Source: Bacteroidales bacterium
GTDB taxonomy: Bacteria; Bacteroidota; Bacteroidia; Bacteroidales; UBA932
Assembly: GCA_024689985.1 (NCBI GenBank)
Contig: JAILCZ010000075.1
Coordinates: 1-48,880, forward strand
Length of the DNA stretch: 48,880 nucleotides
Reading direction: 5' to 3'
The notes beneath the pieces are model-generated. The model had not been told where the DNA came from, did not search any database, and saw only the letters and a list, made by a program, of their open reading frames with translations. Below, one piece after another: positions 15,751 to 20,950 of this stretch. Made by a program: the position numbers and the translations under genes. Within the stretch, counting starts at the first letter, position 1. The number at the start of each line of letters is the position of its first letter.

Positions 15751-18120
15751 ATGACAAACAATGTGAACGCTATTTTGGATGGACTGAATCCGGAGCAACT
15801 TGATGCAGTCCAGTGTGTAGAAGGACCTGTGTTGATAGTAGCGGGCGCGGGTTCCGGTAAAACAAGGGTTTTGACGAGCCGAATTGCCTATATGCTCGCC
15901 CAGGGCGTAGCCCCTGAGAGCGTACTGGCTCTGACCTTTACGAAGAAGGCCGCTGCGGAGATGAAGGAGCGAATCGCTCTGATGGTGGGAGAACAAAAGG
16001 CCCGTAAACTCTATATGGGAACCTTTCATTCTGTCTTCATCAGATTTCTCAGGGAATTCGCTTCAGAAATCGGCTTTCCGTCTTCCTTTACCATCTACGA
16101 CACCTCTGATTCCGTAAGTGCGATCAAGGCCTGTATCAAGGAACTCGGTCTGGACGAGAAGGTTTACAAGCCAAAGACCGTCCTCTCCCGCATTTCGAAG
16201 GCGAAGAACAATCTCATCACCTTCGTGGGCTATCGCAACAACCAGCCGGCCATTATGGCCGATGTAGCCTCAAAGATGCCGAAGATCTGTGACCTCTATC
16301 AGCTCTATGCCACGAAGTGCAAGCAGAGCGGAGTGATGGACTTCGACGATATCCTCCTGTATATGAATATCCTCCTGAGGGACAGTCCTGCCGCCTTGAA
16401 ATCCATATCGGAGAGATTCTCGCATATCCTGGTCGATGAGTATCAGGACACCAACTTCGCGCAGTATCTCATTCTGAAAAAGCTCTGTCAGGCTCACGGC
16501 AACATATGCGTGGTGGGTGATGATTCCCAGTCCATATATTCATTCCGCGGCGCCAGGATCGAGAACATCCTGAATTTCCGCAAGGACTTTCCTAAGAACA
16601 AGGTGTTCAGGCTGGAGCGAAACTACCGCTCCACCCAGACCATCGTGAATGCCGCGAATTCCGTCATCGCGAAGAACACCGACAGGATCCCGAAGGAATG
16701 TCACTCAATGGGCGATGAAGGTGAGAAGATAGAACTGATCCGTTCCTACACCGAACAGGAAGAGGCCGTGCAGATATGCTCCGAGATTCTCGGAAGAATG
16801 CGCAAGGCCCAGTGCGAGTACCGTGACTTCGCCATTCTGTACAGGACGAATTCCCAGTCCCGTGCCCTTGAGGAAGCCCTCCGAAGAAGAAACATCCCTT
16901 ATCAGATCTTCTCCGGAAACTCCTTCTATGACAGGGCCGAGGTGAAGGATATGATGGCATATTTCAAGCTGGTCTGCAATGTGGGGGACGAAGAGTCCTT
17001 CAAGAGAGTCGTGAACAAGCCTGCCAGGGGAATAGGCGAGACTTCTATGTCCGCCCTGGATGCCGCTGCCAAGGCTCATAAGACCACTCTTTTCAAGGCC
17101 GCATACCTGGATGACCTCGCTGAATTCGGACTCAAGGATGCCGCCGCCCAGAAAATACGCAACTTCTGTGATATGATCAACGGCTTCGCGATGAACGTCC
17201 ACAAGACGGATGCCCACGAAATAGCCGCAAGGATTGCCGATGATTCAGGACTGTACAATCTGTACAAGCTCAGCCAGACCGTGGAAGACCAGGCCAGGGC
17301 TGCCAACATAGAGGAACTTCTCAACTCCGTCCAGAGTTTCATTGAGGACAGGGAGGAGGAAGTGGCCCAGGAGGAGGATGTACCGGAGACTATGCTCGTC
17401 ACTCTTTCAGACTTCCTTGACAACGCCGCCCTTCTGAGCGCAGTCGATGTCGAAGATGAAGGTGAGGACGCCAACAACAAGGTCACCCTTATGACAGTCC
17501 ATTCTTCCAAGGGACTCGAGTTTCGTTTTGTCTTCATTGCGGGCCTTGAGGAGAATCTTTTTCCATCCGGAGGCTGGAATGCGACTCCACAGGATATCGA
17601 AGAGGAAAGACGACTCTTCTATGTGGCTGTCACAAGAGCCAAGGAGGCCGTCTCGCTCTCGTTCGCAAAGACCAGGATGCGCAACGGAAAACACGAATCC
17701 AATGCACCAAGCCGTTTCGTCAAGGAAATTGACAGAAGGTATATCCTGAATCCTCTTATGGATGATGATTTCGATGACTCTGATACAAGGGATGAGATAG
17801 GATTCCCTGTCAGGAGAAGATCTTTCGCGCCTCAGTCGGAGATTACTTTCAGGAAGAGAAGCGCTCCTGCTCCTCTGGTTCCGCCAAGACCGAAGAATCT
17901 CGTGCCTCTCAACAGGGCAGTTCCGAAGTCAGATCCTGGGTTTATCTCGGATCCGATAGAAAAATTCAAGGTCGGAATGAGAATCGAACACAACAAATTC
18001 GGCAAGGGAACTATTTTCTCTATGGAGGGCAAACTTCCTGATACAAAGGCTGTTATAGATTTTGATGGCCTAGGAAGGAAGGTCCTTATCTTAAAATTTG
18101 CCAAAATTAAGATATTATAG
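15751..18120 (+). CDS. pcrA: UvrD/PcrA-family ATP-dependent DNA helicase
   Basis: 789 aa from ATG 15751 (MTNNVNAILDGLNPEQLDAVQCVEGPVLIVAGAGSGKTRVL); the track ORF start at 15472 extends antisense into nqrA and is not credible. Confidence 0.96.
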   Translation: MTNNVNAILDGLNPEQLDAVQCVEGPVLIVAGAGSGKTRVLTSRIAYMLAQGVAPESVLALTFTKKAAAEMKERIALMVGEQKARKLYMGTFHSVFIRFLREFASEIGFPSSFTIYDTSDSVSAIKACIKELGLDEKVYKPKTVLSRISKAKNNLITFVGYRNNQPAIMADVASKMPKICDLYQLYATKCKQSGVMDFDDILLYMNILLRDSPAALKSISERFSHILVDEYQDTNFAQYLILKKLCQAHGNICVVGDDSQSIYSFRGARIENILNFRKDFPKNKVFRLERNYRSTQTIVNAANSVIAKNTDRIPKECHSMGDEGEKIELIRSYTEQEEAVQICSEILGRMRKAQCEYRDFAILYRTNSQSRALEEALRRRNIPYQIFSGNSFYDRAEVKDMMAYFKLVCNVGDEESFKRVVNKPARGIGETSMSALDAAAKAHKTTLFKAAYLDDLAEFGLKDAAAQKIRNFCDMINGFAMNVHKTDAHEIAARIADDSGLYNLYKLSQTVEDQARAANIEELLNSVQSFIEDREEEVAQEEDVPETMLVTLSDFLDNAALLSAVDVEDEGEDANNKVTLMTVHSSKGLEFRFVFIAGLEENLFPSGGWNATPQDIEEERRLFYVAVTRAKEAVSLSFAKTRMRNGKHESNAPSRFVKEIDRRYILNPLMDDDFDDSDTRDEIGFPVRRRSFAPQSEITFRKRSAPAPLVPPRPKNLVPLNRAVPKSDPGFISDPIEKFKVGMRIEHNKFGKGTIFSMEGKLPDTKAVIDFDGLGRKVLILKFAKIKIL

Positions 18121-18121
18121 A

Positions 18122-18153
18122 TTTGGAGAATTAGTTAGAATTATTTACTTTTG
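18122..18153 (+). promoter_or_regulatory. Bacteroidota sigma-ABfr-type promoter for the candidate sRNA
   Basis: -33 TTTG, 20-bp spacer, -7 TACTTTTG (consensus TAnnTTTG); starts 2 nt after the pcrA stop codon. Confidence 0.65.
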
Positions 18154-18156
18154 AAT

Positions 18157-18286
18157 CGAAGTTTTTCATAGTTTAAGTTTAGGTTAAGTAGCGGGGCGGT
18201 CGCAGTGATTGCGATTGCCTCGTGAATTTTTTATATATATGCGTATATACAAAAAAAATCGGAGGCATTTCTGTCTCCGATTTTTT
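18157..18286 (+). ncRNA. Candidate small non-coding RNA (about 130 nt)
   Basis: TTTG (18122-18125) N20 TACTTTTG (18146-18153) promoter; 13-bp stem 18192-18204/18210-18222 with three G:U pairs; intrinsic terminator 18253-18286; no plausible ORF. Confidence 0.5.
18253..18286. terminator. Bidirectional intrinsic terminator (sRNA/pcrA on +, lyase on -)
   Basis: AAAAAATCGGAG - gcatttctgt - CTCCGATTTTTT, perfect 12-bp arms with T-tracts on both strands. Confidence 0.92.
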
Positions 18287-18300
18287 GTTTTCTTTATCTG

Positions 18301-19749
18301 TTAGAGAGAGTCTCCGAAGTCTTCCTTGAACTTGGCTACGAGGTCCTCCTGCCAGTGGCCGATTTCCTTGAGGGTTCCGTAGAAGAATCTGAGGACAGGC
18401 GGCTCCATAGTCCATTTGAGACCTCCGATGAGTTCCTTGTTGTCCCATACCCATTTCACACGGTCTGCGCAGTATTTGATCTGGCTGAGGGTGAATACTC
18501 GTCTAGGGCAGCCGAGACGCAGGAGCTCCATTTCAGCGAAGCGCTCGGTACCGTCCGGTTCACGCTGCTCTGAAAGCGTACCTCTTTCCATTCCTCGGAT
18601 ACCGCCGGCAATGTAGAGAGCTACAGCCACAGCTCCGGCAGGATACTGGTCGTGAGGCATATTCGGAACGAAGGCCTGGGCGTCGATGTGAGCGCCGAGT
18701 CCGCCGGCCGGCGTGATCATAGGAACACCATAGTCTGCGCATTCCTTTACGAGATACTCGATGAATTCAGGACCCTGGCAGAGATATTCCATATCGAGGG
18801 ACTCATACAGACCCTGTGTCATTGCCTCGATAGAACGTACGTCGATACCTCCGTATGTGAGGAAACCCTCATAGAGAGGAACGAACTGAACCATATCTTC
18901 GAAGAACTGCTTGTTGTGGCAGATAATGGCACCACCGCGTGCAAATCCGAGCTTTCTTGCAGAGAAGTAGATGATGTCCATCTTGTCTGCGAGAAGGTGG
19001 TATATTTCCTTGGTGGTCATATACTTGCACTGAGCCTCGCGGGTCTTCATAAAGTAGATGTTGTCCTGGAGGAGGGAAGCGTCAAGGACGCTCTTCACTC
19101 CGTAGTGGTGACATACGTCTGCAACTGCGAGCATATTTTCAAGACTGAGAGGCTGGCCTCCGATGAGGTTGGTGCCGGCTTCGATACGTACGAAGGCGAC
19201 TTTCTCAGGCCCGTATTCCTCGATTGTCTTCTTGAGTCTCTTGAGGTCGAAATCTCCCTTGAACGGCAGCGTGCTCTGAGGCTTTACGCCTTCTGGCTTC
19301 ACGAGTTCGATTACCGAACCGCCTACTCGTGTAATATGAGCCTTGGTCGTGGTGAAGTGGAAGTTCATAAGGGTGACCATTCCTGGCTTCACGTAGGTCT
19401 CTGCGAGAATGTTCTCACAGGCGCGTCCCTGGTGTGCAGGAAGCACATATTCGCATCCGAACACATCCTTGACTGCTTCCTTGAAACGGAAGAATGATTC
19501 TGAACCTGCATAAGCGTCGTCTGCCTGCATCATCGCAGCTGTCTGAAGGTCGGACATAGCGTTGACTCCGGAGTCTGTAAGCATATCCATAAAGATATCC
19601 TTGTTGTGGAGGAGGAAGGTGTTGTTACCTGCTTCCTGTGCTTTGCGGAGACGCTCTTCCACTGGGAGGAGGCTTAATTTCTGCACAACGCGAACCTTGT
19701 GCATCTCGAGAGGAACCTGATTCTCAGGTTTGTAGAATTTTACTGCCAT
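18301..19749 (-). CDS. Beta-eliminating lyase, tryptophanase / tyrosine phenol-lyase family (TPL-like substrate residues)
   Basis: 482 aa; LLPVEERLRKAQEAGNNTFLLHNKDIFMDMLTDSGVNAMSD, AYAGSESF, FTTTKAH, SARK (PLP Lys), GIRGMERGTLS. Confidence 0.85.
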   Translation of the reverse strand: MAVKFYKPENQVPLEMHKVRVVQKLSLLPVEERLRKAQEAGNNTFLLHNKDIFMDMLTDSGVNAMSDLQTAAMMQADDAYAGSESFFRFKEAVKDVFGCEYVLPAHQGRACENILAETYVKPGMVTLMNFHFTTTKAHITRVGGSVIELVKPEGVKPQSTLPFKGDFDLKRLKKTIEEYGPEKVAFVRIEAGTNLIGGQPLSLENMLAVADVCHHYGVKSVLDASLLQDNIYFMKTREAQCKYMTTKEIYHLLADKMDIIYFSARKLGFARGGAIICHNKQFFEDMVQFVPLYEGFLTYGGIDVRSIEAMTQGLYESLDMEYLCQGPEFIEYLVKECADYGVPMITPAGGLGAHIDAQAFVPNMPHDQYPAGAVAVALYIAGGIRGMERGTLSEQREPDGTERFAEMELLRLGCPRRVFTLSQIKYCADRVKWVWDNKELIGGLKWTMEPPVLRFFYGTLKEIGHWQEDLVAKFKEDFGDSL

Positions 19750-19852: not shown

Positions 19853-20950
19853 TTATTTTAGTACAAAATCAGATATTTCCTTGATGCCGACAATTCCATA
19901 GTAAGATTCGACGATGTCTCCCTGGAGATAGACCCTCCTTCCGAGAAGGTCAGGATGGTCGGGAAGATTCAGGTTGTCCCTTATGCTGCCCTTGGTCAAG
20001 GCGACTGAAATGCAGGATTCCTTTGTGCTTACGGATGACCTGGATGCTATAGCAATGTTGGTGTTTGATTTGAACGGGGCGTCGAAGCTTATTCCCTTGG
20101 CTCCTGATGAGAGGTCTCCTCCTACGATGTAGCCATAGACCCAGACCGCCTTCGCTCCGACGTGCGAACGGATAGCCGTGATGTTGAAGGCGGTTTCTTT
20201 CGTGCTGCCGGCCTCGGCCGACGATCCGCCTCCGATGACAAAGTCCTCGTTGAGGTAAACTGCAGTCGTGTCCACGTCCAGGGATATGCTGGCTCCGCCT
20301 TCACCTGACGTTGCGTTCCCTCCGGCCGATATTCCTATCGTCAGAATCTGCTGGCTGGCCAGGGTCCTGGTCAGCAGGACCTCGTCCTTGCCGTCGTTGG
20401 TAAGAATGAGGGATACTGCTCCCGGGTTGAAGTAGGCAATCCTTTTTTCGGTAAAGCAGTAGGCCAGCTTGCCCTCTGCGCTTTTCAGAAGCAGGGCCCC
20501 GTTGGGGTAGGCTGTTAGGAAGTTCTCGTCGATGTTCAGCTTTACCCCGGAATTTACGAGCCTGCAGTCCAGCTTGACCTTCGTCGTCTTGCCCGCTGAG
20601 ACCGTCACCACCTTGGTGTCTCCATACTGTGGGCAGGAGAATTTCGGCACCGTGAACTTCTGTGAGATCGCGTTTATCGTATAGGAGCCGGGCTCCACGT
20701 CGATTTTTTCAGGGGATTCACCATAGGTCCCTGAATATATTTCCTTTCCTGCCGAGTTCTGGACATTGAGGATGAAGTCGTTTGTGTCCGGGATGGATGC
20801 GTTCCGTCCCGTTGCCTTCGTCTCGTCGTAGAGGTCATACCTGAAGGCCCATTCCAGCTCTCCTTCGCCTTTCTCCGGAAAGAGGATGTCGCTGCAGCCA
20901 CATAGAAGCAGGACTGCCGCTGCTGATAGTGTCGCGGATGTCTTGAACAT
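19853..20950 (-). CDS. DUF4493-type lipoprotein with C-terminal OB-fold-like (DUF6359-like) domain
   Basis: Lipobox LLLCGCSD; IDVEPGSYTINAISQKFTVPKFSCPQYGDTKVVTVSAGKTTKVKLDCRLVNSGVKLNID; C-term VWVYGYIVGG...LGRRVYLQGDIVESYYGIVGIKEISDFVL. Confidence 0.7.
   Translation of the reverse strand: MFKTSATLSAAAVLLLCGCSDILFPEKGEGELEWAFRYDLYDETKATGRNASIPDTNDFILNVQNSAGKEIYSGTYGESPEKIDVEPGSYTINAISQKFTVPKFSCPQYGDTKVVTVSAGKTTKVKLDCRLVNSGVKLNIDENFLTAYPNGALLLKSAEGKLAYCFTEKRIAYFNPGAVSLILTNDGKDEVLLTRTLASQQILTIGISAGGNATSGEGGASISLDVDTTAVYLNEDFVIGGGSSAEAGSTKETAFNITAIRSHVGAKAVWVYGYIVGGDLSSGAKGISFDAPFKSNTNIAIASRSSVSTKESCISVALTKGSIRDNLNLPDHPDLLGRRVYLQGDIVESYYGIVGIKEISDFVLK

Follow-up and report, generated by a model that had tools for sequence, protein, structure and literature searches.

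A small RNA gene related to Bacteroides FopS and GibS downstream of pcrA in a Bacteroidales genome

The locus examined here lies between the convergent genes pcrA and a beta-eliminating lyase gene of the tryptophanase/TPL family, on a 48,880-nt contig of an uncultured Bacteroidales bacterium of the gut (JAILCZ010000075.1), the whole of which is referred to as the window. The pcrA stop codon ends at position 18120, and the gap to the convergent gene is 180 bp. As a previous sequence-only reading had pointed out, this gap is the odd one out, the other convergent junctions of the window (7859/7856, 33437/33442, 41741/41738, and 46480/46484) having 4 bp or less. The features of the locus and its surroundings are as follows, where A1 denotes an alignment of homologues and R1 a covariance model that we built from 20 sequences.

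15772..18120, + strand: pcrA/uvrD helicase gene, start inferred (Pfam UvrD; conserved upstream neighbour)
18122..18125, + strand: −33 box TTTG of the small RNA promoter (sequence)
18146..18153, + strand: −7 box TACTTTTG (sigma-ABfr, TAnnTTTG; sequence, and in a fixed place in 95 of 138 homologues)
18158..18232, + strand: FopS-like small RNA, predicted at about 75 nt (model R1, sub-threshold Rfam matches)
18158..18190, + strand: unstructured 5' seed GAAGTTTTTCATAGTTTAAGTTTAGGTTAAGTA (unpaired in the centroid fold, invariant in A1, equivalent to R1/R1' of FopS/GibS)
18191..18223, + strand: terminator hairpin of 14 pairs, loop GTGAT (covariation, terminator score)
18227..18232, + strand: T run of the small RNA terminator (sequence)
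18253..18286, no strand assigned: bidirectional terminator, not conserved with the small RNA (folds on both strands)
18301..19749, − strand: beta-eliminating lyase gene of the tryptophanase/TPL family (Pfam PF01212)
19853..20950, − strand: DUF4493/DUF6359 lipoprotein gene (Pfam PF14900 and PF19886; the usual downstream neighbour of the small RNA in relatives)

The promoter elements reported in that reading, TTTG and TACTTTTG with a 20-bp spacer behind the pcrA stop, are exact in the sequence and form a canonical sigma-ABfr promoter (TTTG-N20-TACTTTTG). The predicted 5' end of the RNA at 18158 lies 5 nt past the −7 box, and the predicted 3' end lies in the T run. The conservation block of model R1 spans 18158-18237 in the window (105.9 bits), and the Rfam alignments of both GibS and FopS begin at 18159, that is, 5-6 nt past the −7 box, where the RNA is expected to start. 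Downstream of the seed, the arms 18192-18204 and 18210-18222 form the 13 unbroken pairs, three of them G:U, that had been described earlier, and an additional outer G:U pair (18191-18223) brings the stem to 14 pairs. On the + strand this region folds at −23.9 kcal/mol (z −3.5, reached by 0 of 200 shuffles), compared to −12.9 kcal/mol on the − strand, in agreement with the claim that the stem fits + strand transcription. The stem is directly followed by GAATTTTTT and was itself scored as terminator-like, although the 3 nt (GAA) between the stem and the T run count against the explanation favoured below, and TTTT occurs within 12 nt past the hairpin in 103 of 129 distinct homologues.

The conservation and covariation of the stem in relatives, on which the sequence-only reading had made its proposal depend, were both found. 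In A1, 98.9% of the cells were paired and 7 of the 14 pairs were doubly changed, a result reached by 0 of 500 shuffles. In a second alignment of 99 sequences (A2), which was fitted to the covariance model and so leans towards that model, 96.4% of the cells were paired, with 274 double changes (61 in the shuffled version) distributed over 13 of the 14 pairs, and the covariation score was 0.70, compared to 0.21 when shuffled and no more than 0.15 for slid versions. The centroid fold leaves the 33 nt ahead of the stem unpaired, and they are almost invariant, with columns 1-33 of A1 showing no change at all. Since the stem is followed by GAATTTTTT, TTTT recurs after the hairpin in the homologues, and covariation is strong, we place the end of the RNA at about 18232, and the 14-bp stem is the sRNA's own intrinsic terminator. 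The length of about 130 nt that had been proposed from the sequence does not hold: both the AT hairpin and the 18253-18286 terminator are present as described, but neither was seen downstream of the homologues in relatives, which leaves a predicted RNA of about 75 nt. The terminator at 18253-18286, which folds on both strands, is most likely not part of the sRNA; it most likely serves the convergent TPL-family gene on the − strand and acts as a backstop for the sRNA.

When the region 18120-18290 was compared by BLAST with 24 other genomes of the genus, matches were obtained in 21, with a common block from about 18150 to 18231. Conservation of this block goes beyond chance, since it was recovered by BLAST in 21 of the 24 genomes and since the −7 box and the hairpin are conserved although they lie outside all search patterns. 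A scan of named genomes with the 31-base seed yielded over 118 stretches, every one of them from a genome or metagenome-assembled genome of Bacteroidales or Bacteroidia/Bacteroidetes, several being named Candidatus Cryptobacteroides and Coprenecus; the seed identity of these loci is by construction, since the scan selects for it, whereas their promoter, hairpin, and synteny were not selected. Model R1 matched 99 of 121 genus genomes, some of which rest on a divergent paralogue (type II) alone, and 43 of the 53 with a completeness of 90% or more and a contamination of 5% or less, so that about four fifths of the sampled species in the genus keep the sRNA. Across the order, matches with diverged seeds were found in 38 of 247 genomes, representing 27 of 173 genera. 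Overall, we conclude with high confidence that the pcrA-TPL intergenic region of the window encodes a real small RNA gene.

Nearly all genus genomes contain one or two R1 matches. The genome of the window (84% complete) carries one type I copy, the one described above, and one divergent type II paralogue (C122:2449-2521), a form that recurs in many genus genomes, where it has the seed GAATAGTTTTTTCATAGGTTAAGTTTTAGGTTAGAA and a terminator of its own. The type II copies (L028, which is the copy in the window's own genome, L182, and L184-L201) have a conserved seed of their own and are usually preceded, at 100-230 nt, by a small lipoprotein gene. In the window's genome the type II copy precedes a dps-like gene and a regulator gene resembling oxyR, both named by eye from their translations, and this neighbourhood is not conserved. 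A third seed version, TTTTTTCATAGTTAAGGTTTAGGTTAAAT, followed by a terminator, recurs in many other families of the order (L156-L181). A literature search on Cryptobacteroides sRNAs returned nothing relevant.

The promoter of the type I homologues occurs in two forms. In 95 of 138 homologues TA..TT[TC]G stands at a constant distance from the RNA, compared to 2.2% of AT-rich background windows, while the −33 box is weakly conserved (among 137 upstream regions, 78% have T at −34 and 50% have G at −32). In 23 of the 138, TAnnTTTG is replaced by TGGCAC-N5-TTG at −27/−28, for which the background is 0.3%, and none of the 138 carried both the sigma-ABfr box and the sigma54 motif. The −24/−12 motif of the sigma54 type reads TTGGCACG-N4-TTGC and stands 27-28 bases before the sRNA at loci that include L035, L037, L053, L055, L062, L093, L101, L107, L110, L115, L121, L126, L132, L137, and L140. 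The sigma54 motif was also found in 16 of 32 type II copies, which are not fully independent of one another, and the genome of the window encodes RpoN, as do 22 of 24 genus relatives. The PM2 promoter of GibS was considered as a sigma54 motif and rejected, as the two motifs differ, and a literature search on sigma54-driven sRNAs of Bacteroidetes returned nothing relevant.

No Rfam family, 6S and Bacteroidales-1 included, reached its gathering threshold in the window. In a relaxed search the locus matched GibS (RF04182; 37.3 bits, E 0.0016, cut-off 115 bits) and FopS (RF04319; 28.7 bits, E 0.03, cut-off 56 bits), and it is the best FopS match in the whole of its genome. BTnc231 (RF04180) was matched from the same 5' end at 18.5 bits (E 0.25), far under its cut-off of 80.4. 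The relaxed matches to L20_leader, FsrA, Hsp90_CRE, sraA, and similar families were judged to be chance matches to terminators or poly-U stretches, and 6S and Bacteroidales-1 were absent among the relaxed matches as well.

FopS RNAs consist of a single-stranded R1 seed and an intrinsic terminator, are 65-70 nt in length, are transcribed from sigma-ABfr promoters, and are induced by bile salts; the family comprises 12-15 paralogues per genome, with 14 copies in B. thetaiotaomicron (PMC11697453). The window RNA resembles them in its 5' seed (UUUUUCAURGU...AGGUUAA is common to both), in the layout, seen by folding and covariation, in which an intrinsic terminator comes immediately after a single-stranded seed, in its similar predicted length, and in its sigma-ABfr promoter. 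It differs in its sub-threshold score, in the middle of the seed (UUUAAGUUUAGG here, AUUAGAUUUAAGG in FopS), in being present as one copy with one divergent paralogue instead of in many copies, in its pcrA and DUF4493 neighbourhood, in the sigma54 promoter of some lineages, and in that no RRM protein of the RbpB type was found alongside it. GibS shares the R1 seed at its 5' end. However, GibS is about 145 nt long and has a second seed (R2), two middle hairpins, and the PM2 promoter (PMC7366714), all of which are absent here, the window RNA ending after its first hairpin. Among the order-level loci scanned, two (L159 and L177), both with a Bacteroides-type seed, scored above the Rfam FopS cut-off; since R1 reaches these two loci, common descent with FopS is likely through this transitive link. 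We therefore regard the window RNA, with high confidence, as a diverged relative of FopS and GibS, but by the Rfam definition it falls outside the FopS family. The proposal that the locus holds an undescribed sRNA gene thus stands as to an sRNA gene on the + strand with a sigma-ABfr promoter, but the RNA is not wholly undescribed, since it belongs in one broad class with FopS and GibS, two Bacteroides sRNAs that have been studied experimentally.

The gene neighbourhood bears on two other readings of the locus. In 85 of 144 loci pcrA ends no more than 400 nt upstream of the sRNA, and 89 of the 144, including many without pcrA, have a DUF4493/DUF6359 lipoprotein gene near the sRNA. In 71 of these 89 loci the lipoprotein gene follows the sRNA on the same strand, with 150-290 nt typically separating its start codon from the RNA start, an arrangement that would be expected if the RNA were a cis-acting leader (attenuator) whose hairpin either terminates transcription or allows read-through into that gene. 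However, the DUF4493 gene has a TAnnTTTG box of its own in 47 of 60 same-strand spacers (15% expected), mostly 50-60 nt before the ATG, the gene is convergent in 15 loci and upstream on the other strand in 3, and in the window it is encoded on the opposite strand, at a distance of 1.7 kb and beyond the TPL-family gene. The leader model was rejected on the basis of this separate promoter box and the convergent cases; the RNA is probably not a leader of the DUF4493 gene, and we consider that reading quite unlikely. It is more improbable still that the RNA is simply the terminator or a piece of the 3' UTR of pcrA, with no function of its own. The pcrA end does lie 30-130 nt upstream in most loci and the hairpin does score as a good terminator, but conservation is far stronger in the 33 nt before the hairpin than in the hairpin itself, a promoter box stands at a fixed distance from the RNA, the relatives share the seed with known sRNAs, and many homologues lie away from pcrA (L008, L056, L094, and L138). 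A role of the TPL-family gene was rejected, as it adjoins the sRNA only in copies of the window's own locus and not at other loci. Between the sRNA and the DUF4493 gene at L008, L056, L079, and L109 there are candidates for a small G+C-rich inverted repeat, e.g., CGGTCCGCGACAACCGCGG, which would lie in the short 5' UTR of the DUF4493 gene. The literature searched made no mention of DUF4493 or DUF6359.

We also weighed whether the RNA acts mainly via a protein, as a decoy or in a 6S-like manner, and not by base pairing. A protein might bind the 33-nt single-stranded stretch, which is unusually invariant, and the RRM protein RbpB binds the 5' part of FopS (PMC11697453). However, there was no 6S or Bacteroidales-1 match at either stringency, the seed contains the complement of a AUGAAAAA start, the relatives of the RNA are proven base-pairing RNAs, and no RRM or Hfq protein turned up here. 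RRM_1 (PF00076) had no match in the window's own genome or in 23 of the 24 other genus genomes, seven of which are at least 90% complete, while the control genome, Bacteroides ihuae, was positive, and no Hfq was detected in any of the 25 genomes. The one genus genome with an RRM_1 match was G013. In other families of the order, RRM_1 was present in 10 of 16 genomes. An action mainly via protein is thus very unlikely in our judgement, and it is highly probable that the window encodes a free-standing, trans-acting base-pairing sRNA related to FopS and GibS.

The first steps of the proposed mechanism are supported by the sequence: a sigma-ABfr promoter of the housekeeping type, immediately behind pcrA, would drive the sRNA, an RNA of about 75 nt with an unstructured and almost invariant 5' seed would be made, and transcription would end at its own covarying intrinsic-terminator hairpin. 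FopS pairs at the start codon of susC-type or other PUL mRNAs, repressing their translation, and is antagonised by RbpB, and FopS-10 on susC in B. thetaiotaomicron covers the start codon and blocks initiation (PMC11697453). By homology, the seed segment UUUUUCAUAGUUUAAG may pair with mRNA start regions CUUAAACUAUGAAAAA, covering the start codon and so preventing initiation in the same way, a mode of action in which we have moderate confidence. Exported envelope proteins with gene starts ACUAUGAAA would be the likely clients, the linked DUF4493/DUF6359 lipoprotein possibly among them. The window-type RNA would have to function independently of Hfq and, almost throughout the genus, of any RRM (RbpB-like) protein.

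For the targets, a duplex scan was carried out on the nearly whole genome of a relative (G016; 2.34 Mb, 1835 genes). Pairing with start regions at −12 kcal/mol or better exceeded that of fully shuffled seeds, none of 60 of which reached it, but when the shuffles kept the start-codon part UUUUUCAU, 2-29 of 60 reached it and the excess vanished. Since this control removes the excess, no regulon is claimed, and the scan supports start-codon pairing only in general. The strict antiseed pattern YTTAAACTATGAAAA, searched in 121 genomes, matched almost exclusively the sRNA gene itself, with a handful of others. Among linked DUF4493 genes, 25 of 83 had an ACUAUG start, compared to 21 of 727 comparable genes, although the linked genes are homologous and their antiseed starts are therefore not independent; near-perfect antiseed starts were seen at L015, L042, L106, and L091. 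The window's own DUF4493 gene pairs poorly with the seed (−10.2 kcal/mol).

A wider interpretation, which we regard as possible but doubtful, is that FopS and GibS form one branch of a superfamily that spans the order and is older than the Bacteroidaceae, and that Cryptobacteroides-like bacteria have two single-copy sRNAs without RRM or Hfq proteins, one of them fixed between pcrA and a targeted DUF4493/DUF6359 gene and rewired to sigma54 in whole lineages. To our knowledge, FopS regulation has been described for the Bacteroidaceae only, where it is tied to RbpB. Our results place such a seed-plus-terminator RNA in the majority of species of a large genus of uncultured gut and rumen bacteria, as well as in families scattered over the order. 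Since this RNA is found where RRM proteins are missing, the data suggest that it can work without an RbpB partner, which makes the lineage of this genus a natural comparison for the contribution of RbpB, and its single-copy members sidestep the difficulty that 14 redundant paralogues pose for FopS genetics. Finally, if a sigma54 promoter has taken the place of a housekeeping promoter while the sRNA behind it stayed otherwise unchanged, this would be a case of sRNA rewiring that is both rare and dateable.
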